From a virus, in the IMG/VR virus record IMGVR_UViG_3300025294_000209, positions 1 to 41,127 of that record: 41,127 bases of DNA; one strand, written 5' to 3'. Position 1 is the stretch's first letter, and each line of letters begins with the position of its first letter. Positions 1,241 to 39,705 of this stretch are shown piece by piece. Under the pieces are notes generated by a model. That model was given only the letters and a program-made list of their open reading frames with translations, was not told the DNA's origin and did no database searches. The position numbers were made by a program, and so were the translations under genes.

Positions 1241-1905
1241 CCTATATGCGCGATTTCAGTCAACCTTCCGGCAAGCGCACAAGAACACTGTCGCAGGAAT
1301 TCAACGTTCTGTCGCTCGCTTCCTCTTCCGGAAAATCGCGGCGAGCTAGACATGGCTAAAAGCCATGTTGCACTTCATGTCGCGTGGAGCCGCCGAGCCC
1401 AGTTGGAAAAACCCGGAATTGCAGCGAACTGCGTTGCAACACGACTGTTGTCCGCCAAGCTTATCCGGAATTATCCGGAGAGATCGGGGGAGACCCACAA
1501 ACCGGCGGGGAATGGTTGAAAATCAACGAGTTGCCCGTGGGGAAGAGTGGTTTGTCGCGGGAAGCGGCTTGGACAGCCTAGTGTGATAAAAACCGTAAAA
1601 TCGGGCGATCCTGCAGGGCTGAATTCAAAAATCCCGCGCTGCCTTTGAGAAGTCTATGAAAGCGCAGAAAACCGGCTTTGAGACCGCTTTCCCGTCGGAG
1701 CACTGGTCGCTTTTTGCCCGCTGAAGTCGGCCGGCATTCCAATTTGAACATGCAAGCGACTTGCATGTTGGTCCGTCGGGTTCCGCAACCCCGGAATTCC
1801 AAGGCTATCGGCGTAAAACGAGATGTTTGCAAACATGCAAGCGATGAGCGCTGTTTCCATTGTCGCTTGCATGTTTCGCGTTGCCTGACGGCGCACGTTT
1901 GTTTC
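1241..1905. other. Long intergenic region with palindromes
   Basis: I see no convincing gene in this 665-base stretch; short ORFs on both strands lack family resemblance. A tight direct repeat of TTATCCGGA lies at 1461-1469 and 1471-1479. The right half holds the palindrome cluster annotated separately (1747-1876). The stretch lies between the 3' ends of two leftward genes and the next gene start, so it could hold a promoter for the gene ending at 761 and a terminator for the gene ending at 1906. Confidence 0.4.
1747..1876. repeat. Cluster of palindromes built on ACATGCAAG
   Basis: Three dyads share one core. The first is AACATGCAAG / CTTGCATGTT (1747-1756 and 1760-1769) with a 3-base centre. 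The second is a 14-bp perfect palindrome, ATGTTTGCAAACAT (1823-1836). The third is a 14-bp perfect inverted repeat, AAACATGCAAGCGA (1831-1844) with its reverse complement at 1863-1876. The core occurs four times, twice on each strand. It sits just downstream of the DUF4062 gene. It could be a bidirectional terminator, a family of intergenic palindromes, or binding sites for a dimeric protein. Confidence 0.6.
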
Positions 1906-3069: not shown

Positions 3070-4251
3070 TCACCAGCTCACATCGAGTTCGTCGTCATAG
3101 CGCATGCCGGGCATTACTCCACGAATGTTATGATTGGGAAGGATCCTGGTGACACGCTTCTTATGAACTTCGTAGCCTGGGAATGGGTCAGTGATTACCT
3201 GGTCAAAGAAGATGCGATGGCGATCAGTCAAGTGGTCGGTTATCTCAACTAAGAAGAGGTGGACAGCCTCATAGTCTGCCACGACAACCTGGGGCGTATG
3301 GATCGTTTCAAGGTGCTCATAGAGCCTGCCGATATTGTCTCCTCCGTCGACAAACAGTGGCCTAGTACCTTCAAAATAGACGGTCTCGATTTGCTCTCTA
3401 ACTGGGTCCATGTTGCCGTGAATGGCGAAATTGCGTTTGTCCATCACCCGCTTGAAGTCGCCATAGATCGCGCTTTTCAGATCGATTGGCCGAGAGAAGC
3501 CATCGCAATGCTCACTGAGGGCAGCCAGTCGCTCGGGAAGCTTCAATCGAATGAATGCGCCATAGAGTTCGGGATCGTTACGAACCTTATCCTTGCAAAA
3601 GACGAGGATAACCATGTTGATAAAGGCCTCGGCCATTATGGGCGTCAGGAGCCTCAGCTTCAGACAGTTTCCGTAAAGATCGTTGACGCGCTTGCTTCGC
3701 CGTCTCTCCTGCGCCTCCCATCGCTTAACTGCACGTTTCGAAGCGAGGTCAGGCATCTTCGCCATCCCCTCAGAAGGTGCATCGGTGATCGCTTCGTGCA
3801 TCTCCGCACAGAGGTCAGCGAGCGTCACGAACTTGTTTTGGAAAACCACGAACTTTTCAAATGAGCGAGTCATCTCCGACTTGGCCTGCCCCATGCGGCC
3901 AAAGTCCCGCTTCAGGCCCAAGATCAGATTTTTCCAGTCTTGGTCGCTCATCGCCTCAGCTATCATGAAATGAGTATCTCGGGATGTTCCTTGTATGTAG
4001 ACATTGACATCCTCCGCCCTCAAGACGAAGTCCCAATGAATCCAGTTGTCGCTATCATCCCGGCGCAACAAGTTCTGAAATCCGTTCGGCGTCCCGAAGC
4101 GTGCACGAAGGTATGCGTAGACGTCGACCGGCCGAAGATGCGTTCTGACGATCAGAATGTTGCCTCGGACCGCTGATTTCTGTTCGTAGAATTCGGTCGC
4201 TTCCCTCGGAGTTGCCTTTCTCCACGACGCTACGTCCACTGCCTTTGCCAT
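3070..4251 (-). CDS. HEPN-motif protein, partner of the DUF4062 gene
   Basis: The 393-residue product has no overall family I can name. It has a mostly helical C-terminal half that contains DKRNFAIHGN, an R-x4-H motif (R273 and H278 in this numbering) of the kind that forms the RNase active site in HEPN domains. The preceding helices (MAEAFINMVILVFCK and KSAIYGDFKRVM) fit the HEPN four-helix layout. HEPN proteins are frequent toxins and phage-defence RNases (known); a role here is inference. I chose ATG 4251, with GGAAC upstream; an in-frame GTG at 4314 would add 21 residues. The gene precedes the DUF4062 gene in the same direction. It is separated from the phage repressor by about 280 bases that may contain the left prophage end. 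Confidence 0.6.
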   Translation of the reverse strand: MAKAVDVASWRKATPREATEFYEQKSAVRGNILIVRTHLRPVDVYAYLRARFGTPNGFQNLLRRDDSDNWIHWDFVLRAEDVNVYIQGTSRDTHFMIAEAMSDQDWKNLILGLKRDFGRMGQAKSEMTRSFEKFVVFQNKFVTLADLCAEMHEAITDAPSEGMAKMPDLASKRAVKRWEAQERRRSKRVNDLYGNCLKLRLLTPIMAEAFINMVILVFCKDKVRNDPELYGAFIRLKLPERLAALSEHCDGFSRPIDLKSAIYGDFKRVMDKRNFAIHGNMDPVREQIETVYFEGTRPLFVDGGDNIGRLYEHLETIHTPQVVVADYEAVHLFLVEITDHLTDRHRIFFDQVITDPFPGYEVHKKRVTRILPNHNIRGVMPGMRYDDELDVSW

Positions 4252-4535
4252 CGCGCCCCGTTCCAAACCGTGCAAGTCCGCCACCTCTATAAGTGGCAGG
4301 ATCCCCTCTTGCACGCAAACATCGAGATCCCTAGCTTATCTATGCAATTCTAGGGTGCCGAGGGTAATTATGCGAATTTGAGACTACGGGCGCTGTTCCC
4401 CGCGCCCGTCCACCGCGCCGCCTCTCGGTGCGTCGACTGGTTCAAACACAAAACCGAACTTTTCGAACATCCTGGCAAAACCGGGCGCGATCCCATGTGC
4501 TTGCTTTTCTGGCTGATCCAAGCGTGGCTTGACGA
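4252..4535. other. Junction between HEPN gene and phage repressor
   Basis: There is no gene on either strand here. The stretch must hold the promoter of the leftward HEPN gene and, if that gene is host-derived, the left end of the prophage with its transposase-binding sites. I found no element that matches a right-end candidate together with a 5-bp direct duplication. A short hairpin-like GC-rich run, GGGCGCTGTTCCCCGCGCCC, occurs at 4388-4407 and may terminate repressor transcription. Confidence 0.4.
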
Positions 4536-5140: not shown

Positions 5141-5473
5141 ATGCACCGCCCCCAAAGGACGGACAAGCCACGCGACCGCGCTGCCAACAAGCTGGAGGAG
5201 CTTGCCTCTGTTAAGAGCATGCTCCTCCTTGCTGGCCTCACAACCTACGACATCGATCGTCGCTACTACCTGTCACGTGGGACCGCCGGAACGACGCTTC
5301 GCGAACCCAACATGGCAGGGGAACAGGCAATCGCTGCTGCTCTCGGTACAAAGGCGCACTTGTTGTGGCCGAGCCGTTACCAGCCCTCCGGTCAGCGGCG
5401 ATCCCCTCAGCCGCGTGAGAACTATGAGCGCCCACCCACCATGCGGCAACGCCAAAAAAAGGCGGGCGCATAG
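5141..5473 (+). CDS. ner: Ner-like early regulator
   Basis: The 110-residue product has the Ner/Nlp-type helix-turn-helix: MLLLAGLTTYDIDRRYYLSR, TTLREPN, then QAIAAALGTKAHLLWPSRYQ. The last block closely resembles the LETKPEVIWPSRY signature of phage Mu Ner. In Mu, Ner damps both the repressor and early promoters after induction (known). The gene is first in the rightward early operon, divergent from the repressor. I chose ATG 5141 because GAGG lies nine bases upstream. An in-frame ATG at 5069 would add 24 residues and overlap the leader hairpin. The 30-residue tail is basic and longer than in Mu Ner. Confidence 0.8.
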   Translation: MHRPQRTDKPRDRAANKLEELASVKSMLLLAGLTTYDIDRRYYLSRGTAGTTLREPNMAGEQAIAAALGTKAHLLWPSRYQPSGQRRSPQPRENYERPPTMRQRQKKAGA

Positions 5474-6776: not shown

Positions 6777-7231
6777 AGCGCGACCCCGCCCAGTTCGATC
6801 TGTTCCTTGAGCCCCTATTCCCGGTTCGCGTGCCCGTCGCGCGGATCGACATCGACCGCTACCGATCGAAGATGAAGCGCGCGATGGCCCGCGCCATCCG
6901 CGAATGCCCGTACGACCGGCCAACCATCGCCGCCCGCATGGCGCAGTATCTCGGCCTGCCGTCGATCAGCAAAGCAATGCTCGATGCTTACACGGCCGAG
7001 AGCAAGGACGGGCACGACATCACCCTGCCGCGCTTCGCCGCCTTCGTGCATGCGACCGGCGCCATGTGGCTTTGGGATGAAGCTGTGTCCGAGCAGGGCG
7101 CCACCCTCCTCGTCGGTGACGAAGCCCGCCTCGCCGAAATCGCCCGCCTTCAGCAAGAGCAAGAGAGCATCCGCCAGGAGCTGCGGTCTCTCAAATCTCG
7201 CCCCGTCACGATCAGGAGGACACGCACATGA
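6773..7231 (+). CDS. HTH-type early phage protein
   Basis: The 152-residue product carries a helix-turn-helix-like core: RPTIAARMAQYLG, SISKAMLDAYTAESKDGH and ITLPRFAAFVHATGA (residues 46-98). A predicted coiled tail follows (LAEIARLQQEQESIRQELRSL). Proteins of this look commonly sit directly upstream of the transposase in Mu-like phages of proteobacteria. Their role is not well defined and may be regulation of the transposition operon. The ATG overlaps the preceding stop (ATGA at 6773-6776). The gene overlaps the transposase start by four bases, so all are probably translationally coupled. Confidence 0.6.
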   Translation: MKRDPAQFDLFLEPLFPVRVPVARIDIDRYRSKMKRAMARAIRECPYDRPTIAARMAQYLGLPSISKAMLDAYTAESKDGHDITLPRFAAFVHATGAMWLWDEAVSEQGATLLVGDEARLAEIARLQQEQESIRQELRSLKSRPVTIRRTRT

Positions 7232-9186
7232 AGGAGTGGCTCACGTCCTCCGAAATCGCGGCAGCTCGTCTGCCCGACCTGCCGCAGACCCGCCAGGGCA
7301 TGGAACTGATGATTGCCCAATTCGGCTGGCGCTCGACCGACAAGGCACGGACGCGCGCCGGTCGCGGCGGTGGCTTCGAGTATCACATATCGCTGTTGCC
7401 CTCGGCCGCACAGGTTCGGCTCCGGCACGCTCCGGATCCGGCCGGATGGGACGAGGCCCGCGCACGAAAGAACCTGCTTTGGTCGCGCTTCAACTCCCTC
7501 TCGAAGGCACAGAAAGCGGTCTGTGAAGAGCGCTTGAAGGTTATCAACCGAGTCGAGCAGCTCGCGCGCGATCGCGGTTTGAACCGCACAGCGGCCATCG
7601 CCGTCGCAACGCTCGACGCCAGCGTCCAGAAGTCCGCCTATTACGAGTGGCGCAAGGCCACCCAGGGCGTCGACCCGGAAGATTGGTTGGCCGCACTCGC
7701 GCCGAATACCGCGTCTGCTGACGGTGTCGTCGCGCAAGTCTCTGATTGCCACTCCGACGCCTGGGATTTCCTTAAGTCCGACTTCCTGCGCCCAGGTAAG
7801 CCTGGCTTTTCAGCGTGCTACCGCCGCATGATGGCAGCAGCCAAGAAACACGGCTGGTCGCCGATACCCTCTGAGCGCTCGCTTCGTCGCCGTATGGACG
7901 CTGACGTGCCGAAGGCGATCCAAGTCGCGACCCGCGAAGGTTCCGATCGCGCCAAGACGCTTTACCCCGCGCAGCGCCGAACCCGCTCGCACCTGCATGC
8001 GATGCAGGCCGTCAACATGGACGGTCACAAACTCGACCTATTCGTTCGGCTTCCAGGCCGCGACAAGCCGACCCGCCTTTATCTGGTCGGCATCCAGGAT
8101 CTCTATTCCGGTAAGATCCTCGCCTGGCGTCTTTCCGAAGCCGAGACTTGGGAAGTGGTGCGCCTGGTTGTCGGCGACATGGTCGAGCAGTTCGGCATCC
8201 CGGAGCGCATCTACCTCGACAACGGTCGGGCCTTCGCCTCGAAGAAGATTTCCGGCGGCACTAAGACCCGTTACCGCTTCAAGGTCCGGCCGGAAGATCC
8301 GCAAGGGCTGCTGACGGCTCTGCAGATCGAGACCCATTTCGTACTACCCAAATCCGGCCAGTCAAAGCCGGTCGAGCGCGCCTGGGGCGACTTCGCCGAG
8401 AACGTGTCAAAGCACCCTACTTGCGCTGGCGCTTATACCGGGAAGAACCCCAATGAGAAGCCGGAGGATTATGGCACCTCCGCGATAGACATTGCCGACC
8501 TCTCTCGCCTCATCACCGAGGAAGTGGCCGAGCACAATGCCCGCATAGGCCGCAGGACCGAGACCGCAAAGGGCCGAAGCTTTGACGAGACCTTTGCCGA
8601 AAGCATGCGACTGCCGACGACGATCGTTCGCCAGGCGACCGAAGCACAGCGTTTCCTTTGGCTTCTCGCATCCGAAGCGATCCGAACCCACAAGGGCAGC
8701 GGCGAAGTCCACTTCATGGGCAACCGCTACTGGAGCCGCGAACTCAACCAGTACATGGGCAAGCAGGTGACGATCCGGTTCGACCCGGATCACCTGACGA
8801 AGCCTATCAAGGTCTACGATCTCGCCAATCGCTTCATCTGCGATGCGGATTGTATTGCCGACACCGGCTTCGACAATCAGGACGCTGCACGCGAGCATGC
8901 CCGCAATCGCGCGGATTACCGCAAGGCGAATGCGGCCCTGGCGAAGGCGCACCGGAAGCTGTCGCCCATGGAACTCGGCGCAATTCTGGAAAAGGGACGC
9001 AAGGCCGAGCGGCCCGAGTCGGTCCGACCGACTGTCACCCGCATCTTCACCGGCAACCTCGCGACCGCGCCTGCAGAGGCGATCAGCGACGACGAGTTTT
9101 CCGACGTTTTCTCGAAAGCCCTTTCCCGCGTGTCAGGCGGGGCTTCGATCCTCCCATTCTCGAAAGGGAATACGGCCGAAAAGTAA
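7228..9186 (+). CDS. A: MuA-type DDE transposase
   Basis: The 652-residue product is close in length to Mu A (663). An N-terminal winged-helix region (EWLTSSEIAA to GFEYHISLLP) matches the Mu end/enhancer-binding modules. The RNase H-like catalytic core shows the triad D265 (NMDGHKLDLF), D331 (IYLDNGRAF) and E383 (KPVERAWGDF), nearly the same spacing as Mu D269, D336 and E392. A beta-barrel Mu-transpos_C region follows, near YWSRELNQYMGKQVTIRF. The C-terminal tail should contact the MuB ATPase and ClpX. It catalyses strand transfer for integration and replicative transposition. A strong ribosome site (AGGAGG) precedes ATG 7228. All catalytic residues are present. Confidence 0.95.
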   Translation: MKEWLTSSEIAAARLPDLPQTRQGMELMIAQFGWRSTDKARTRAGRGGGFEYHISLLPSAAQVRLRHAPDPAGWDEARARKNLLWSRFNSLSKAQKAVCEERLKVINRVEQLARDRGLNRTAAIAVATLDASVQKSAYYEWRKATQGVDPEDWLAALAPNTASADGVVAQVSDCHSDAWDFLKSDFLRPGKPGFSACYRRMMAAAKKHGWSPIPSERSLRRRMDADVPKAIQVATREGSDRAKTLYPAQRRTRSHLHAMQAVNMDGHKLDLFVRLPGRDKPTRLYLVGIQDLYSGKILAWRLSEAETWEVVRLVVGDMVEQFGIPERIYLDNGRAFASKKISGGTKTRYRFKVRPEDPQGLLTALQIETHFVLPKSGQSKPVERAWGDFAENVSKHPTCAGAYTGKNPNEKPEDYGTSAIDIADLSRLITEEVAEHNARIGRRTETAKGRSFDETFAESMRLPTTIVRQATEAQRFLWLLASEAIRTHKGSGEVHFMGNRYWSRELNQYMGKQVTIRFDPDHLTKPIKVYDLANRFICDADCIADTGFDNQDAAREHARNRADYRKANAALAKAHRKLSPMELGAILEKGRKAERPESVRPTVTRIFTGNLATAPAEAISDDEFSDVFSKALSRVSGGASILPFSKGNTAEK

Positions 9187-9245
9187 GGCGTCACGGCCGT
9201 CAGCATGAACCGAAATGTACTGAGTGCGGTTCCGACAAAAAAACA

Positions 9246-9268
9246 GGGCGGGAGTGCAAGTCCCGCCC
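9246..9268 (+). promoter_or_regulatory. Stem-loop between transposase and ATPase genes
   Basis: GGGCGGGA (9246-9253) pairs perfectly with TCCCGCCC (9261-9268) around a 7-base loop in the 124-base gap between the A and B genes. A smaller TGCCC/GGGCA dyad follows at 9276-9288. There is no T tract. It may tune the ratio of transposase to ATPase through RNA stability or partial termination, which is inference. Confidence 0.45.
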
Positions 9269-9310
9269 AACAATCTGCCCCTCAGGGCATCTGAACGAGG
9301 AACCTTTTAG

Positions 9311-10339
9311 ATGAATACACATGTGTCCACAAGTCCTGCAGCCGGCACCTGGGACCGGCCGACGCCATCGCAGGACTTCAAGGCAAAGCACTCCCACGAG
9401 GATGTTGCGGACTGGGAAGTGTTGAACGCCCGCGTTCGTGAGATCGCAGAAGCGAACAGCTTCACCAAAGCCGAAGCCGGCCGGCGCATCGGCATGTCAT
9501 CGGCGACCTTCAGCCAGTGGTTTTCTGGCACGTACATCGGCCGGATCGAACCCTTCAACCGGCAGGTTCGCAACTGGCTCGAAGCATTTGACGAGGGGGT
9601 GAGCCTTGCCGCCACCATCCCGCAGTCGCCTGACTTCATCAACACAAAGATCAGCCGCGAGATCTTCGAAACCCTGCACTGGGCGCAGATGACAGCGGAC
9701 ATGGTCATGATCACCGTCGGCGCCGGCATGGGCAAGACGGCGACCTGCCGGCGATACTCTGCCACCAGGCCGCACGTCTTTCATGTCACCATCAGCCCCC
9801 ACACCAAGACCGTTCACGGCATGCTTGTGGAGATCGCGGAAGAGATCGGCGTGCGTGAGGTGAACCCCGCGAAGCTGACGCGTGCGATCGGCGCCAGGCT
9901 TGCGCGAACTGGCGGCGGCACGCTGCTGATCGTCGACGAGGCGCAGAACCTCGTTGACGACGCCATCAACTAGCTCCGCCATTTCATGGACATCTACAAA
10001 TGCGGCATCGCCCTCGTCGGGAACGAGGAGGTTTACACCCGCTTCAACAAGTCCAGCGGCGGACCGAGCTACGCGCAGTTGAAGCGCCGTATCGGCAAGC
10101 GCCTAAAGCGCGCCACCCCTTACGTCGAAGACATCACCGCTTACATCGCCGCCTGGGGCGTGACCTCCGAGGACTGCGTGCAGTTCCTGACCGGCGTCGG
10201 CAAAAAGGGCGGCGCACTCGGCCAGATCGACAAGACCCTGAAGCTCGCCTTCATGGCCGCGATCGGCGCCGAGGAAGAATTGTCCCTGAAGCACCTGAAG
10301 GCAGCCTGGGCCAACCGCGACGTGGAGGATCTGCAGTGA
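9311..10339 (+). pseudogene. B: MuB-type transposition ATPase with in-frame amber codon
   Basis: The reading frame would give 342 residues. It has a N-terminal DNA-binding helix-turn-helix (TKAEAGRRIGMSSATFSQWF), Walker A GAGMGKT (137-143), Walker B TLLIVDEAQ with D209 and E210, then MuB-like sensor and C-terminal parts. Codon 221 is TAG (9971-9973) in the context DDAIN-stop-LRHFMDIYKCG. The same frame continues without another stop to 10339. A single C-to-T change from CAG (Gln) explains it. MuB selects and delivers target DNA and activates MuA (known). A 220-residue product would lack the rest of the AAA+ core, so replicative transposition should be impaired unless the stop is suppressed or is a sequencing error. 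The downstream ATG at 9986 has no ribosome site. Confidence 0.85.
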
Positions 10340-10641
10340 GCAGCATCCTCGACAAAACCGCCAGCATCGCGATCCGCGAGCTGCAGGCCGAGATCCAGGC
10401 GCACGCCACCAGCGGCACTGCGCTTCCAGTTACACACCTCCGCCTGGTCGTCGATCAACTGCGCACGATCGGCTCTCTCGTCGACCTGATGGAACAGGAA
10501 CTCGCGGTGCATCGTCTCGGCGAACAGGGCCGGGCCGCGTTCAGCGTTATTGAGGCTGCGGCCGGCGAGCTGCTCGAAGGACCGGCGCGGATGGAGGACG
10601 GAAACGTCCTTCATCTCGATTTCGGCGGGAGGAAGCCATGA
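10336..10641 (+). CDS. Hypothetical early phage protein, 101 residues
   Basis: Starts at GTG 10336, overlapping the stop of the ATPase frame (GTGA), so translation is probably coupled to full-length reading of that gene. The product is mostly helical (KTASIAIRELQAEIQAHA, then VTHLRLVVDQLRTIGSLVDL), with no signal or membrane segment. I do not recognise the family. The position between MuB and Gam is where Mu-like phages carry small non-essential early genes. The amber codon upstream could reduce its expression by polarity. Confidence 0.6.
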   Translation: MSSILDKTASIAIRELQAEIQAHATSGTALPVTHLRLVVDQLRTIGSLVDLMEQELAVHRLGEQGRAAFSVIEAAAGELLEGPARMEDGNVLHLDFGGRKP

Positions 10642-10922
10642 AGGTCTTTCCTCCCCAGGCGTCCGACCTGGCCGATGTCATCTATTGCCAGTTCTTGCCC
10701 TACGCGAACGTTGGAGTAGAGCTCGCGCCCAAGGCAGTCGCCTCTCTCCTCAAGAACCTGCTGACGATCCGGGCCTTGGCCCGTGAGCAGGAAGAGGAAA
10801 TGCGCATCTTGGAGCTGCGGCTCGTCGCAATCGGTCAGGTGCAAACCGTGTCCGAAGCGGCCGGCGACAACGTGGTGCGGTTCCCGCTGTGCCGCGTGCC
10901 TTCGGAAAACACACCAAGCTGA
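10638..10922 (+). CDS. Hypothetical early phage protein, 94 residues
   Basis: The ATG overlaps the preceding stop (ATGA at 10638-10641), with GGGAGGAAG as a strong ribosome site inside the previous gene. The product contains a leucine-rich helical centre (LLKNLLTIRALAREQEEEM) and a short basic/hydrophobic tail. There is no recognisable domain, signal or membrane segment. It is probably an accessory early protein of the transposition operon. Confidence 0.6.
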   Translation: MKVFPPQASDLADVIYCQFLPYANVGVELAPKAVASLLKNLLTIRALAREQEEEMRILELRLVAIGQVQTVSEAAGDNVVRFPLCRVPSENTPS

Positions 10923-10963
10923 ACAGCCCCCTCCTCCTCAGTGCTTAAAGGAACCTTTCGATT

Positions 10964-11503
10964 ATGGCCAAGACAGCCAGAACTAAAACGACCGCCGCCA
11001 ATCTTCCTGTTCCGCAGGACAGGAACGAAGCTGCAGCAACTGTGTCGGCGATCGGTGAGCTGACGCGTCAACTCACCCGCATGGAAACGGACATGAACGA
11101 TGCAATCTCGGCGGTCAAGGAACTCTATGAAGCCAAGGCCGCGCCGGTAAAGCTCGCGATCGCTGAGAAGACAGACGGGCTCTCCATCTGGGCTGAGGCC
11201 AACCGGGCGAAGCTAACAGGCGGAGAGAAGACGAAGACCGTTGATCTCGGCACCGGCGTCCTACGCTGGCGCCTGCGCCCGCCGTCAGTAAGCATCTCGA
11301 AGGTCACGGACACTCTTGAACGCATCCGCGCGCTCGGCCTCCTGCAATTCATCCGCATCAAGGAGGAAATCGACAAAGAGGCGATGCTGCGCGAGCCCGA
11401 TCTGGCCCGGACCATCGCCGGCGTCCGGATCGGTTCGCCAGGCGAGGATTTTATCGTCGAGACCTTTGAAGCTCAGTTGTCTTCCGATGTAGCAGGGGCA
11501 TGA
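10964..11503 (+). CDS. gam: Mu Gam-like host-nuclease inhibitor
   Basis: The 179-residue product has the Mu Gam layout. A long N-terminal helix (AAATVSAIGELTRQLTRMET to YEAKAAPVKLAIAEKTDGL) is followed by a strand region with VDLGTGVLRWRLRPPSVSI and a C-terminal helix with FIRIKEEIDKEAML. Gam dimers are Ku-like. They bind double-stranded DNA ends and protect them from RecBCD/AddAB exonucleases during phage development (known). The gene has a good AAAGGAACC ribosome site 11 bases before ATG 10964. It is the last rightward gene before the inverted membrane-protein pair. Confidence 0.85.
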   Translation: MAKTARTKTTAANLPVPQDRNEAAATVSAIGELTRQLTRMETDMNDAISAVKELYEAKAAPVKLAIAEKTDGLSIWAEANRAKLTGGEKTKTVDLGTGVLRWRLRPPSVSISKVTDTLERIRALGLLQFIRIKEEIDKEAMLREPDLARTIAGVRIGSPGEDFIVETFEAQLSSDVAGA

Positions 11504-11508
11504 CTATG

Positions 11509-12243
11509 CTACAGGTCTATCTGATACATCTTGGCAACGCGCTCCATATCCCGCAAAACGACCGGAAGAACGTTCACGCAGTAATCCACGTAGCCGTCGA
11601 TGTTGTGAGGCCCACCCTCCTCCAACCAGTCGTCAAATACAAAATCGGGTTCGAACTCCTTGCCGTAGTATTTTTGAGCCGTTTGTATGTCGTCGGCAAC
11701 GAAAGACGTGCGCTTCCTCAGGTCCCAGATCGCGTACATGAGCTGGCCACCAAACAGCGTCTCCCCTTCTTTAAAGTGCGGCAAATCAAGGATGCTGCTG
11801 ATCCTCGCGTAAATGATCACAATTCTGAAAACGTAATCCCGAAAAAGCACCTCAGCCACCTCTCCGGTTTCGTCTTCCGTTGGCTGCCTTTTCACCTGGG
11901 TAGCCCTTGCGTACGAGAGGCAGTCACGCAGTTCACCGTGTTGTGGTGTCAATGCCCGCTCCAGCTTCAACCTGTCCGATCGTGTAGCGAGTTCCATCGC
12001 CTGGTTGTGCCGAATGCTCGCCTTTTCGTCGGCCACCTGCATCGTTCGGACGGTCCACCATGCGGCAGCCAACGCGAGGACGCCGGTTATCAGCGTTTGA
12101 AAATCGTACAAAATATTACGGACAACGCTGCCGCCCGTCGTGCCTTGGACCACTCGGGGCTCCCCCGTAAAAATCAAGACGAAAACGGCGGTCACGATTA
12201 CGACCGCGAGCGCCGTCAAAAACGCCCTATAACCAACGGACAT
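11509..12243 (-). CDS. Two-helix membrane protein, second of a paralogous pair
   Basis: The 244-residue product has two N-terminal membrane helices (FLTALAVVIVTAVFVLIF and LITGVLALAAAWWTVRTM). A charged cytoplasmic domain of about 180 residues follows, with no recognised motif. The segment from the second helix through DRLKLERAL aligns well with YVTVAQMRATDELAEKRHHE and DYLKLHRAF of the next gene, so the two are diverged duplicates. The pair is leftward, against the early operon, and its 3' end almost touches Gam. ATG 12243 was chosen; GTG 12255 is an alternative. The opposite-strand long ORF is a shadow. The cassette looks like cargo. An effector or superinfection-exclusion role is inference only. 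Confidence 0.7.
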   Translation of the reverse strand: MSVGYRAFLTALAVVIVTAVFVLIFTGEPRVVQGTTGGSVVRNILYDFQTLITGVLALAAAWWTVRTMQVADEKASIRHNQAMELATRSDRLKLERALTPQHGELRDCLSYARATQVKRQPTEDETGEVAEVLFRDYVFRIVIIYARISSILDLPHFKEGETLFGGQLMYAIWDLRKRTSFVADDIQTAQKYYGKEFEPDFVFDDWLEEGGPHNIDGYVDYCVNVLPVVLRDMERVAKMYQIDL

Positions 12244-12270
12244 TCCATCACCCACAAGACAATCAACCGA

Positions 12271-13041
12271 TCAAGCTTGGCCCAAACCACCGCGGCCATA
12301 GGCTTTGAGCAGTTGCTCCAGTGCCCGGTGATAGTCGTTTACGGCGGCCTTAAACGAGTCGAAGACATCATAGATTGCCGAGGCATTCAGCTCATTCAGC
12401 GCTGCTTCCCTCCGCAGTTTCGAATAATCGTCATCATAGTCTCGGCTAGCTCGGAAATAGGAAACCGCAGCGGTCAAACTTTGGCAGCCCTTCACAAAAA
12501 GAAGACCAGCGTCTTCGGCCTCTTTCTTAAGCCGTACAAGGCGAGCATCGAAAAGGTCGCTGACATCCTCGGGCATCGAATGCAGAAAATTGCGGTTGTA
12601 AGAACGCACCGCATCCTCCACCTCGTCAAACAGAACCAGGAGTTGAAGCGCTTTTTCGCTAGCAGCTTTCACATCGTCCGCGTCGGCAACGTCATTTGGC
12701 GGCAGCGTCAAACTGACAACGTTGTCATGGAACCGCCTGTGCTCCCCGAATGCCCGGTGCAGCTTCAGGTAATCTGCTCGAACACTAACCCCGAACAGTT
12801 CGTGGTGTCGTTTTTCCGCCAATTCATCGGTTGCTCTCATTTGAGCAACCGTGACGTAGGCCGCGATCATTGCCGCCAAACCTCCGATCAGGCTTTGGTA
12901 ACGAATGACCCAGTCGCTGGGAGATTGCGTGGCAGGATCGGACACAGTCGCGGCCAGGATCGCGACTGCGACAACCACAATGCATGCGGCCAAAAAGGGT
13001 GGAACCGCAGGTTTATTTTCCGGAGGCAGCTTGCTCATCAT
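12271..13041 (-). CDS. Two-helix membrane protein, first of a paralogous pair
   Basis: The 256-residue product has two membrane helices (FLAACIVVVAVAILAATV and SLIGGLAAMIAAYVTVAQM). A long helical cytoplasmic region follows, including EKALQLLVLFDEVEDAVRSY and AVNDYHRALEQLLKAYG. It precedes its paralogue by 27 bases in the same leftward direction, so both form one operon. I chose ATG 13041; ATG 13038 is adjacent, and a GTG at 13125 would add 28 residues. The promoter must lie near 13045-13150, facing the start of the GemA gene. Lower GC than neighbouring phage genes suggests recent acquisition. I do not recognise a named family. Confidence 0.7.
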   Translation of the reverse strand: MMSKLPPENKPAVPPFLAACIVVVAVAILAATVSDPATQSPSDWVIRYQSLIGGLAAMIAAYVTVAQMRATDELAEKRHHELFGVSVRADYLKLHRAFGEHRRFHDNVVSLTLPPNDVADADDVKAASEKALQLLVLFDEVEDAVRSYNRNFLHSMPEDVSDLFDARLVRLKKEAEDAGLLFVKGCQSLTAAVSYFRASRDYDDDYSKLRREAALNELNASAIYDVFDSFKAAVNDYHRALEQLLKAYGRGGLGQA

Positions 13042-13151
13042 AGCGGCATATCGGGCATCAAAATGATTCGGCGCAAGCCTGGGTGGCGATGCCAGGTAGC
13101 AGGTAGCACTGAGATCCACCGCCACTTAGAGTTCAAGAAGGGTGGTGTTCG

Positions 13152-13790
13152 GTGAACCAGTACATCGTAGCCATCCAAGTCGCCAAAAAGAAGCTCGGCC
13201 TGGACGAGGATACCTACCGTGCCAAGCTGAAAAACGTCACCGGCAAGACATCCACCAAGGACATGACGGACGAAGAACGGCAGAAGGTTCTGACGGTGTT
13301 TCGCAACGAAGGCTTCAAGCCGGCGCCGAGTGCGCCTCGGCCGAACGGTCGTGCCAAGATCACCGGTCGCTTTGCCGGCAAGCTGCAGGCGCTCTGGATC
13401 GCCTGCTACAACCTCGGCATCGTCGCGAACCGCGACGATGCCGCCCTCCTCGCCTTCGTCAAGCGCCAGACCGGCATCGATCATGTCCGCTTCCTGAAAT
13501 TCAGCGATGACGCGCAGAAAGCGATCGAAGCCCTGAAGGCCTGGATGGCCCGAGAGGGCGGCGTCGTCTGGACGAACATTGACGCACTCGCGGACTATGA
13601 CCGTGCTGATGGGTACAAGATCGCCTGGGCACAATGGCGCAAGCTCTATCGCCCGTCGACCAGCAGCTCGGCATTTCGCGCGGCCGTCCTGGAGTTGACT
13701 GGCGTCCCGGTTGACCGCTGCACTCCCAACAACTGGATCGCCGTCATGAACGAACTCGGCCGGCGCATCCGCGCAAAGGCGGGTGCGTGA
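13152..13790 (+). CDS. gemA: GemA/gp16-like regulatory protein
   Basis: The 212-residue product matches the Mu gp16/GemA family. It has an N-terminal IVAIQVAKKKLGLDEDTYRA motif, KTSTKDMTDEERQKVLTVFR, then KLQALWIACYNLGIVANRDD and ALLAFVKRQTGIDHVRFL, followed by EGGVVWTN and a C-terminal extension. In Mu this early protein modulates host gene expression and DNA topology (known, not well defined). It resumes the rightward early operon after the inverted cassette. The start is GTG 13152; the upstream AAGAAGGGTGG serves as ribosome site. Its stop overlaps the next ATG by one base. Confidence 0.85.
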   Translation: MNQYIVAIQVAKKKLGLDEDTYRAKLKNVTGKTSTKDMTDEERQKVLTVFRNEGFKPAPSAPRPNGRAKITGRFAGKLQALWIACYNLGIVANRDDAALLAFVKRQTGIDHVRFLKFSDDAQKAIEALKAWMAREGGVVWTNIDALADYDRADGYKIAWAQWRKLYRPSTSSSAFRAAVLELTGVPVDRCTPNNWIAVMNELGRRIRAKAGA

Positions 13791-14221
13791 TGGTGGCCTA
13801 TAGCTTCAAACCCTTTTTCGAGCCGCAGGTCGCGACCGGCATTAAACTGCAGACGGTTCGCGGCCAGCGCCGCCGGCACGCGCGGCCTGGCGAAGCGTTG
13901 CAGCTCTATGTCGGGCTGCGGACGCGGTTCTGTCGCAAGATCGTCACCCCGGATCCGATCTGCACCGACACACTGCCGATTGTCATCGAGACGAGCAGCC
14001 TGATCGACAGCATCATCGCTGCCATCGACATCAACGGCCGGCAGCTCCACCGCGACGAGATCGAAGAATTTGCCCGTGCCGATGGTTTCGCTCCGGAACA
14101 TATCAACGGCGTGGCGATCGACATGCACGGCAAGACGGCGCGGGAAAACATGGGCGCCTTCTGGCAAGCCAACCATCCGATCGGCCGCTTCTCCGGCGAG
14201 CTGATCAAGTGGACGCCGTGA
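13790..14221 (+). CDS. ASCH-domain protein
   Basis: The 143-residue product fits the ASCH fold. It has the N-terminal YSFKPFFEPQVATGIKLQTV strand-helix-strand with the G-x-K-x-x-T-R-like box (TGIKLQTVR). Next come RPGEALQLYVG, RTRFCRKI, and late ADGF and FSGELIKW elements. ASCH domains bind RNA or modified nucleosides and occur in many phages, sometimes as regulators or ribonuclease-like enzymes (known). The ATG at 13790 overlaps the preceding stop. It sits between GemA and the Mor-like activator, so it belongs to the early/middle operon. The exact ligand is unknown. Confidence 0.6.
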   Translation: MVAYSFKPFFEPQVATGIKLQTVRGQRRRHARPGEALQLYVGLRTRFCRKIVTPDPICTDTLPIVIETSSLIDSIIAAIDINGRQLHRDEIEEFARADGFAPEHINGVAIDMHGKTARENMGAFWQANHPIGRFSGELIKWTP

Positions 14222-14231
14222 GAGGCATGAG

Positions 14232-14432
14232 ATGCACAGCGCCGCGCCCCTCCCGCTTTTCACATGGCAAGAGGACGCGGCGCTCGGCCGGCTGCAGGCC
14301 GAACGGGCGGAGCTTAACCGGCGGATCGCGGCCCTCCCGAAAATGAGCCACCGGCGCGTGGCACTCACCGAACGAATGAAGACATTGACCGCACAAGAGC
14401 TGAAGCTCTCGCTTGCTGGTCGCGAGGATTGA
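14232..14432 (+). CDS. Small coiled-coil protein
   Basis: This 66-residue ORF has a good ribosome site (GAGAGG) and lies ten bases after the ASCH gene. The product is a single charged helix: AALGRLQAERAELNRRIAAL, then RRVALTERMKTLTAQELKL. There is no recognised domain. Small helical proteins of this kind commonly precede the middle-gene activator in Mu-like phages; the function is unknown. Confidence 0.6.
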   Translation: MHSAAPLPLFTWQEDAALGRLQAERAELNRRIAALPKMSHRRVALTERMKTLTAQELKLSLAGRED

Positions 14433-14433
14433 A

Positions 14434-14814
14434 ATGACCGACACGGCAACCACCAACACGCCAAAGCCACCGGCAAACCTCGCGCCCTATGTCGAGGCGA
14501 TCGGCGCGGATGACGCGGCCCGGCTCTTCCTCGCACTCGGCGGAACGATCATCTATCTGCCGAAGGATAGGGCCACCGCCCGCAGCCGTGCGGCGCAGGT
14601 AATTGGAGCCCGCAAGGTCGAGGCGCTTGCCGCCAGGCTCGGAGTGGATTACGTAAAGGTGCCGCTCGCCAAGACTTGGATAGCCGAGCTGATGTTCGCC
14701 CAGGGCGAAAGCATCGCCGAGATTGCCCGCACGGTCCGGTCAGACGTGTCGACGGTACGCCGGTGGCTCGGCCCCTCCAATGGCGAGCGGCAGATGGACC
14801 TTTTCCCCGCATAA
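14434..14814 (+). CDS. Mor-like activator of middle/late transcription
   Basis: The 126-residue product resembles the Mor/C activator family of Mu. An N-terminal dimerisation region has ARLFLALGGTIIYLPKD and ARLGVDYVKVPLAKTW. A C-terminal helix-turn-helix follows, WIAELMFAQGESIAEIARTV then SDVSTVRRWLG. In Mu, Mor activates the middle promoter and C the late promoters (known). Here only one such gene is seen, directly ahead of the lysis/packaging block. It may therefore drive the late operon starting near 14930. The start is ATG 14434, one base after the previous stop. Confidence 0.7.
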   Translation: MTDTATTNTPKPPANLAPYVEAIGADDAARLFLALGGTIIYLPKDRATARSRAAQVIGARKVEALAARLGVDYVKVPLAKTWIAELMFAQGESIAEIARTVRSDVSTVRRWLGPSNGERQMDLFPA

Positions 14815-14834
14815 CGCAAATCACTGACTCAGCT

Positions 14835-14853
14835 GCGTCCATGAACAGGACGC
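14835..14853. promoter_or_regulatory. Dyad upstream of the late operon
   Basis: GCGTCC (14835-14840) and GGACGC (14848-14853) form a dyad with a 7-base centre in the gap after the Mor-like gene. CTGACA at 14861-14866 could be a -35-like element, but no -10 stands at the usual distance. A weak promoter helped by an activator bound at this dyad is plausible. Confidence 0.35.
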
Positions 14854-14882
14854 GGCAACCCTGACATTTTGAGCCCTATCCA

Positions 14883-14905
14883 CGGCGCGCCACAACGGCG
14901 CGCCG
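14883..14905 (+). terminator. GC-rich hairpin before the late operon
   Basis: CGGCGCGCC (14883-14891) pairs with GGCGCGCCG (14897-14905) around a short loop. Each arm contains an 8-bp self-complementary core. No T run follows, so it may be a weak terminator for the early transcript or a structured leader of the late transcript. The endolysin ribosome site (ATCGGAGG) starts a few bases later. Confidence 0.5.
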
Positions 14906-14929
14906 CTTGCATCGGAGGCGGGCTCAATC

Positions 14930-15550
14930 ATGAACGATCCCTTCTACATCTACCGGCCAGGTCTTGACCTCCTCGGCTTATCCGAGGGCACGGACAAGAA
15001 GCGCGGCTACAACGAAACGCTCGCATACGGCGCCTATACGGACGGCGATCGCAACCTGGTCGCAATGACGCTCGACCAGATCGAGCAGCTTCAGACCAAG
15101 ATGCTGCAGCATCCGAAGAACTATCTGAACTCCTCGGCTCTCGGCCGCTATCAGATCGTCCGCACCACGTTGCGCAAGCTCAAGGCATCGTTGAAGCTCA
15201 GCGGCGCCATGCTCTTCGACAAGGCGCTGCAGGACCGCTTAGGCGTCGAGCTTATGCGCGGGCGCGGCATCGACATCTGGCTTGCTGGCGACATGAGCGA
15301 AGATGCGCTGATCAACGCGCTCGCCAAAGAGTGGGCCTCGTTGCCGACCACGTCTGGCTTCGGTCACTATGACGGGCAGCGCGCGTCCGTGTCGGTGACG
15401 CGGGTGCGCCAGGTGCTCGGCGAGATCCGGCGCCGGCGCAGTGAACCCGCTCCCAAGCGGACGCCCGTCGACGGCGGTAGCAAGCCTGGTTCTACCAACG
15501 ACAGCTTCCTCGTGCGCTTCCTCAAAGCGATCTTTGGGGTGAAGGCATGA
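14930..15550 (+). CDS. Lambda R-like endolysin (lytic transglycosylase)
   Basis: The 206-residue product matches the glycoside hydrolase 104 family of lambda R. It has LDLLGLSEGTDKKRGYNETL with catalytic Glu19, the same position as in lambda R. Then come SALGRYQIVRTTLRKL, a DKALQDRLGVELM helix and EWASLPTTSGFGHYDGQ. It cleaves peptidoglycan without water, forming anhydro ends, in the periplasm at lysis (known). There is no signal peptide, so it should need the holin encoded next. About 45 residues at the C-terminus form a linker and a hydrophobic tail (FLVRFLKAIFGVKA) absent from lambda R, which might bind the membrane. It is first in the late operon and overlaps the holin gene by four bases. 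Confidence 0.85.
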   Translation: MNDPFYIYRPGLDLLGLSEGTDKKRGYNETLAYGAYTDGDRNLVAMTLDQIEQLQTKMLQHPKNYLNSSALGRYQIVRTTLRKLKASLKLSGAMLFDKALQDRLGVELMRGRGIDIWLAGDMSEDALINALAKEWASLPTTSGFGHYDGQRASVSVTRVRQVLGEIRRRRSEPAPKRTPVDGGSKPGSTNDSFLVRFLKAIFGVKA

Positions 15551-16089
15551 GCGTGATCGGCACGATCCTCATCGCGGCGGCCGAGAAGGTCGCCGCTCCT
15601 ATCGTGAAGTCGATCCTGGTCGGCAAACTCGGCCGTTCGGATGAAGGCCTCGTCGACGTCGTCATTGACAAGGTCGCGGGCAAGCTCGGCGTTGAGCCGG
15701 AAGCGGTCTCGGCTGAGCCGCCCGAACGTCTGGAGGAGGCGGTCCGCCAGGTCGAAGCCGAGGCGCCCGAAATGCTCGCGGTTTGGGAAGCCGGCCTCAA
15801 AGGGCAGTTCGCACTCCTTCAAGCCGAGCAGAAAGAGGGCTTTTGGCCGAGCGCCTGGCGCTGGGGCTGGATGTACTTGCTCGCCGTGATGTGGTTCGTG
15901 CGCCTCATGATCGTGCCCGTGGTCGACGCGATCGCCGGCTTCGACATCGCCGCCGGCATGGACTTCACGGTCATGATGACGCTCACCGGCTGGTTCATCA
16001 GTCTCTACATGGGCGGACACACCTTAAAGGAACTCGGCACCTCGGCCGTCCAGGCGGTGAAAGCCTACCGACAGGGAGGCCGAGCCTGA
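15547..16089 (+). CDS. Holin of the GTA/3TM type
   Basis: The 180-residue product has an amphipathic N-terminus (MSVIGTILIAAAEKVAAPIV), a charged middle with an acidic helix, then two strong membrane helices (WMYLLAVMWFVRLMIVPVV and DFTVMMTLTGWFISLYMGG). It ends with a basic tail. This matches the holin family found in alphaproteobacterial gene transfer agents and prophages. It should form membrane lesions that release the endolysin. The gene overlaps the endolysin gene, which supports the call. It ends at TGA overlapping the next ATG. Confidence 0.75.
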   Translation: MSVIGTILIAAAEKVAAPIVKSILVGKLGRSDEGLVDVVIDKVAGKLGVEPEAVSAEPPERLEEAVRQVEAEAPEMLAVWEAGLKGQFALLQAEQKEGFWPSAWRWGWMYLLAVMWFVRLMIVPVVDAIAGFDIAAGMDFTVMMTLTGWFISLYMGGHTLKELGTSAVQAVKAYRQGGRA

Positions 16090-39575: not shown

Positions 39576-39705
39576 TCGTGGCTGAGTGCTAGAAGTGACC
39601 GTGACGCGGTTGGCTCCCTTCTGCAACCACCGGTCTTCGCAGAACTTGCGATCCGCCCATTCTCCGTGCTCTAGCTTACGGCAAGAGTTTTTGTTGGGGG
39701 GCCCC
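39576..39705. other. Right junction stretch without a gene
   Basis: No gene is visible here. This stretch lies between the terminator and the HEPN gene and probably holds the right prophage end, or a promoter for the following gene, or both. I did not find terminal repeats that match the left side with a 5-bp duplication. Confidence 0.35.

Follow-up and report, generated by a model that had tools for sequence, protein, structure and literature searches.

In phage Mu, MuB is the AAA+ target-capture protein (PDB 8xvb). When it is missing, Mu still transposes in E. coli, though at a level nearly two orders of magnitude lower, and cis-immunity is lost altogether (PMC7350765). The isolated Mu-like phages StopSmel (OR786374.1) and Aussie (OR786373.1) of the plant symbiont Sinorhizobium meliloti each carry an unbroken muB gene of 1029 bp that encodes 342 aa, is annotated ‘transposase B’ and directly follows the gene for MuA. 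The stretch of DNA analyzed here (the window) is an IMG/VR virus record of 41,127 bases. It is a Mu-like (transposable) prophage and close kin of these two phages, the nearest that have been isolated, and we infer that its host is Sinorhizobium or a near relative. As in its kin, muB (9311 onwards) comes directly after the MuA gene (7228-9186), but in the window the gene is interrupted by an in-frame amber codon.

A Mu-like prophage related to StopSmel and Aussie

Across window positions 7228-16000, the aligned pieces are 88.3% identical in DNA sequence to StopSmel and 85.9% identical to Aussie. From the repressor through to the tail genes, the genes of the three elements come in the same order. 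The left Mu-type end of the prophage (1446..1510, plus strand, TGTTGTCCGCC...) is homologous to base 1 of both phages, and the left-end sequence TGTTGTC... is identical in all three. The window differs from StopSmel and Aussie in its early cargo genes, repressor and tail-fibre region, and in that the right end of the prophage falls outside the record: the sequence terminates at a gene end at 41127, and the right end of the prophage itself was not recognized within it.

StopSmel proteins were aligned to the window to judge the state of the other genes. Every matched gene except MuB aligns free of stops. For the terminase, portal, protease, capsid, tail and tape-measure genes, the alignment covers the entire gene or almost all of it. 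The MuA transposase (7228..9186, plus strand) is intact and, along its entire length, shares 88% identity with StopSmel transposase A. The Mu Gam-like end-protection protein (10964..11503, plus strand), recognized by profile matches, has an intact frame, and GemA (13152..13790, plus strand) is intact by profile match and by StopSmel alignment. By this comparison the core genes other than muB look intact, as an earlier note on this DNA had claimed. High similarity to StopSmel breaks off in three places: the repressor, which has diverged, the tail-fibre region, and the cargo at 10920-13150, which has been replaced.

Two minus-strand cargo genes (1906-2982 and 3070-4314) lie between the left end and the repressor, and StopSmel has neither. 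The former encodes a DUF4062 domain, and its matches are to phage families whose function is unknown; the latter has no match. Between Gam and GemA, two adjacent minus-strand genes (11509-12255 and 12271-13125), opposed in direction to the early operon, have no match in Pfam, PHROG or PADLOC. StopSmel has different genes in this interval and Aussie likewise has two minus-strand genes there; the interval is a cargo spot. Near the right end, a plus-strand open frame of 513 aa (39586-41127), also with no Pfam, PHROG or PADLOC match, replaces the StopSmel ligase gene. The gene at 1-363 has no relatives in IMG/VR.

A 23-bp exact copy of the StopSmel/Aussie right end, in the same orientation, occurs at 1326-1348, 97 bp outside the left end at 1446. 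Its position suggests a second Mu-like prophage next door, present either as a relic or as the end of a neighbor. A related record (L116, IMGVR_UViG_2839335573_000004) has, at 1108-1155, a Mu-like right end (...GCGGCGAGCTACA), then the 5 bp GAGGT, then the apparent left end of the next prophage (TGTCACCC...). These are apparently tandem Mu-like prophages with exactly 5 bp between them; CTTAG, not GAGGT, follows that prophage’s own right end. A scan for tandem right-end/left-end junctions returned two chance matches, both unrelated. PLSDB plasmids contain no near matches, and no second copy of the window prophage was found.

The muB frame and its amber codon

Translation of the plus-strand frame 9311-10339 (MNTHVSTSP...DVEDLQ) gives a single internal stop, TAG at 9971-9973 (codon 221), ahead of the terminal TGA at 10337-10339, in agreement with the earlier reading of this frame. 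The N-terminal fragment (9311..9973) is 220 aa long and comprises a helix-turn-helix region followed by Walker A (GKT, residues 141-143) and Walker B (DE, residues 209-210). The stop falls 11 residues beyond the Walker B Asp-Glu, so its description as lying just past Walker B is accurate. It precedes an LVGN strand that aligns with LMGN of Mu. The remaining 121 codons (9974..10339), which are probably untranslated or very poorly translated, code for this LVGN strand, which resembles sensor 1, for what is left of the AAA+ core and for the Phage-MuB_C domain.

The assignment of the locus to the MuB-type ATPases is supported by matches on both sides of the stop. The upstream 220 aa match Pfam AAA_22 (PF13401) at E 7.8e-12 (residues 128-219, profile positions 4-101 of 130), and the downstream 121 aa, in the same frame but past the amber codon, match Phage-MuB_C (PF09077) at E 5.3e-24 as well as PDB 8xvb and 1f6v. 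The family phrog_296 (‘DNA transposition protein’) is matched by the upstream half at E 7e-48 (profile 204-405) and by the downstream half at E 1.7e-21 (profile 408-524). Because the two halves match adjoining stretches of phrog_296, and each has its own Pfam domain, 9311-10339 is no chance frame. The full frame is homologous to phage Mu MuB over residues 39-338 (E 1.1e-36), with Walker A, Walker B and the C-terminal domain aligned. However, it is only 28.6% identical to Mu MuB, has an N-terminal extension and is truncated by the amber codon. Identity is far higher to the MuB proteins of StopSmel (96.8%) and Aussie (92.7%). Thus, the locus has the AAA+ domain with its Walker motifs, a C-terminal domain in the same frame, and a position directly 3′ of MuA, but the TAG at 9971-9973 deprives it of one unbroken translatable frame. 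By descent the locus is muB, but it does not encode an intact MuB protein.

The codon at position 221 was read after the matched 220 residues in a first set of homologues (65 IMG/VR loci, StopSmel and Aussie) and was CAG or CAA without exception. Across all fetched loci, glutamine occupies this position in 89 of 89 distinct close homologues (80 CAG, 9 CAA), including StopSmel (CAG) and Aussie (CAA); only phage Mu has glutamate. Given this invariance, a single-base nonsense change fits, as the earlier note had proposed from the window itself. A degenerate-pattern scan of IMG/VR found no contig with TAG at the site, and in 394 genomes sampled around Rhizobium chutanense, all 41 MuB-like matches are free of internal stops. 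Besides the window copy, the only disrupted MuB found is on a metagenome contig (L050, 3001-3756), where the protein is cut short at 251 residues, ~30 residues past the codon 221 site, apparently by a frameshift. Disruption of MuB is therefore uncommon in the clade yet not unique to the window.

There is no sign of long decay downstream of the amber codon, as judged from codon changes polarized with Aussie as the outgroup, although the counts are small. Changes unique to the window lineage comprise 15 synonymous and one missense before the stop, and four synonymous and no missense after it. The unpolarized window-StopSmel pair has a missense to synonymous ratio of 4:6 after the stop versus 7:35 before it (Fisher p 0.19). 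Relaxed selection past the stop was rejected on this p value and because polarization leaves no unambiguous window-lineage missense change there. The undecayed state of the downstream half implies that the mutation is recent or that the protein is still made.

Is the stop recent, functional or an error?

We consider that a recent, ordinary point nonsense mutation inactivated muB in an otherwise complete-looking Mu-like prophage, with a probability of about 0.85. One competing explanation is a sequencing or assembly error, such that the true prophage has the glutamine codon and an intact MuB. The difference is one base, no other record carries the stop, and the remainder of the gene and of the phage looks functional and under constraint, all of which an error would explain. 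Yet, next to real nonsense mutations in prophages, substitution errors in a finished consensus are rare, and the StopSmel protein alignment reveals none of the frameshifts typical of poor assemblies in the rest of the record. We regard an error as unlikely.

A functional amber codon, at which a host suppressor tRNA or natural readthrough lets part of the MuB reach full length, perhaps to restrain lytic growth, would leave the same undecayed pattern past the stop. Moreover, in-frame stops in genes that appear to be under constraint have been reported as widespread across bacteria (PMC7918605). However, the stop is private to the window record, being absent from the 89 distinct close homologues and from IMG/VR matches. 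A strong suppressor would also lengthen the five other window proteins whose genes terminate in TAG, those ending at 5471, 21750, 24247, 27653 and 36297, by 24, 23, 69, 79 and 3 codons, respectively. This use of TAG as a terminator, set against a single internal occurrence, rules out reassignment of the amber codon to sense. The RNA 3′ of the stop has a folding z-score of about -2.35 to -2.7 relative to shuffles. A dedicated readthrough element was rejected, as the same stretch folds in the stop-less genes of Aussie (z -2.7) and StopSmel (z -1.9), and segments elsewhere in muB are equally low (down to z -3.0). The window has no tRNA genes, and hence encodes no suppressor tRNA with a CUA anticodon, and a literature search on amber suppressors in Sinorhizobium found nothing relevant. 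Restoration of MuB by suppression or readthrough, which the earlier note had raised, is accordingly very improbable. The more specific proposal that the amber codon is kept as a translational brake, with low-level readthrough or suppression in the host yielding just enough MuB for slow transposition, is highly improbable; if true, the phage would behave as a near-quiescent transposon.

Could MuB instead operate in two pieces? An in-frame ATG at 9986, 12 bases past the amber codon, opens a possible reinitiation frame of 117 aa (9986..10339, plus strand), and this C-terminal fragment would hold the domain whose structure was solved alone in phage Mu (1f6v). The 220-aa and 117-aa fragments might then act together or separately. 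Against this, the break lies within the AAA+ core and not where the C-terminal domain is bounded, the ATG lacks a Shine-Dalgarno-like sequence upstream, and its methionine is Ser, Val or Cys in most homologues. No homologue is split at codon 221, although the earlier note had named such split homologues as what would refute its reading, and the sole other disrupted MuB breaks elsewhere. A split MuB as a family trait was ruled out on this basis. Using only the C-terminal half as query returned no loci, probably owing to overly specific peptide patterns. A two-piece MuB in the window is scarcely credible.

Probable consequences and parallels with defective phages

Under the preferred reading of a recent nonsense mutation, one base change would have converted a conserved MuB glutamine codon into an amber codon. 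The 220-aa product would keep the helix-turn-helix region and the Walker motifs. Everything from the sensor-1 strand onwards, including what remains of the AAA+ core and the C-terminal domain, would be lost. With these parts missing, the anatomy of the protein suggests that it could not serve as the ATP-dependent, target-DNA-binding activator of MuA, and, given what has been learned of MuB and of AAA+ proteins, it should not build an active ATP-dependent filament on target DNA. On induction, transposition and replication would be weak, at ~1% if Mu lacking MuB is a guide, unless MuB were supplied in trans; another Mu-like phage in the same cell might help in this way.

The earlier note had suggested that the lesion could lock the prophage. 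A crippling effect is well in keeping with the findings, a strict lock less so, since Mu without MuB still transposes, at a level reduced about a hundredfold (PMC7350765), and trans supply is conceivable. The case for a lock is also weakened by the second Mu right end, apparently a relic, that lies 97 bp beyond the left end. By analogy with Mu, then, the prophage is probably crippled but not absolutely locked.

The amber muB points to no new mechanism. It is comparable to the defects of other prophages, such as those of the E. coli O157 Sakai pool, in which defects are complemented by other prophages (PMC2669165). In both cases a recognizable prophage has a lesion in a gene needed for propagation, whereas the window differs in that the lesion is a single point nonsense change and the phage is transposable. 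The window muB is a natural counterpart, in a rhizobial Mu-like prophage, of the classical Mu B amber mutant. Its significance is modest, but it could be used to study the movement of such phages when their target-capture ATPase is missing or when a neighboring phage assists.
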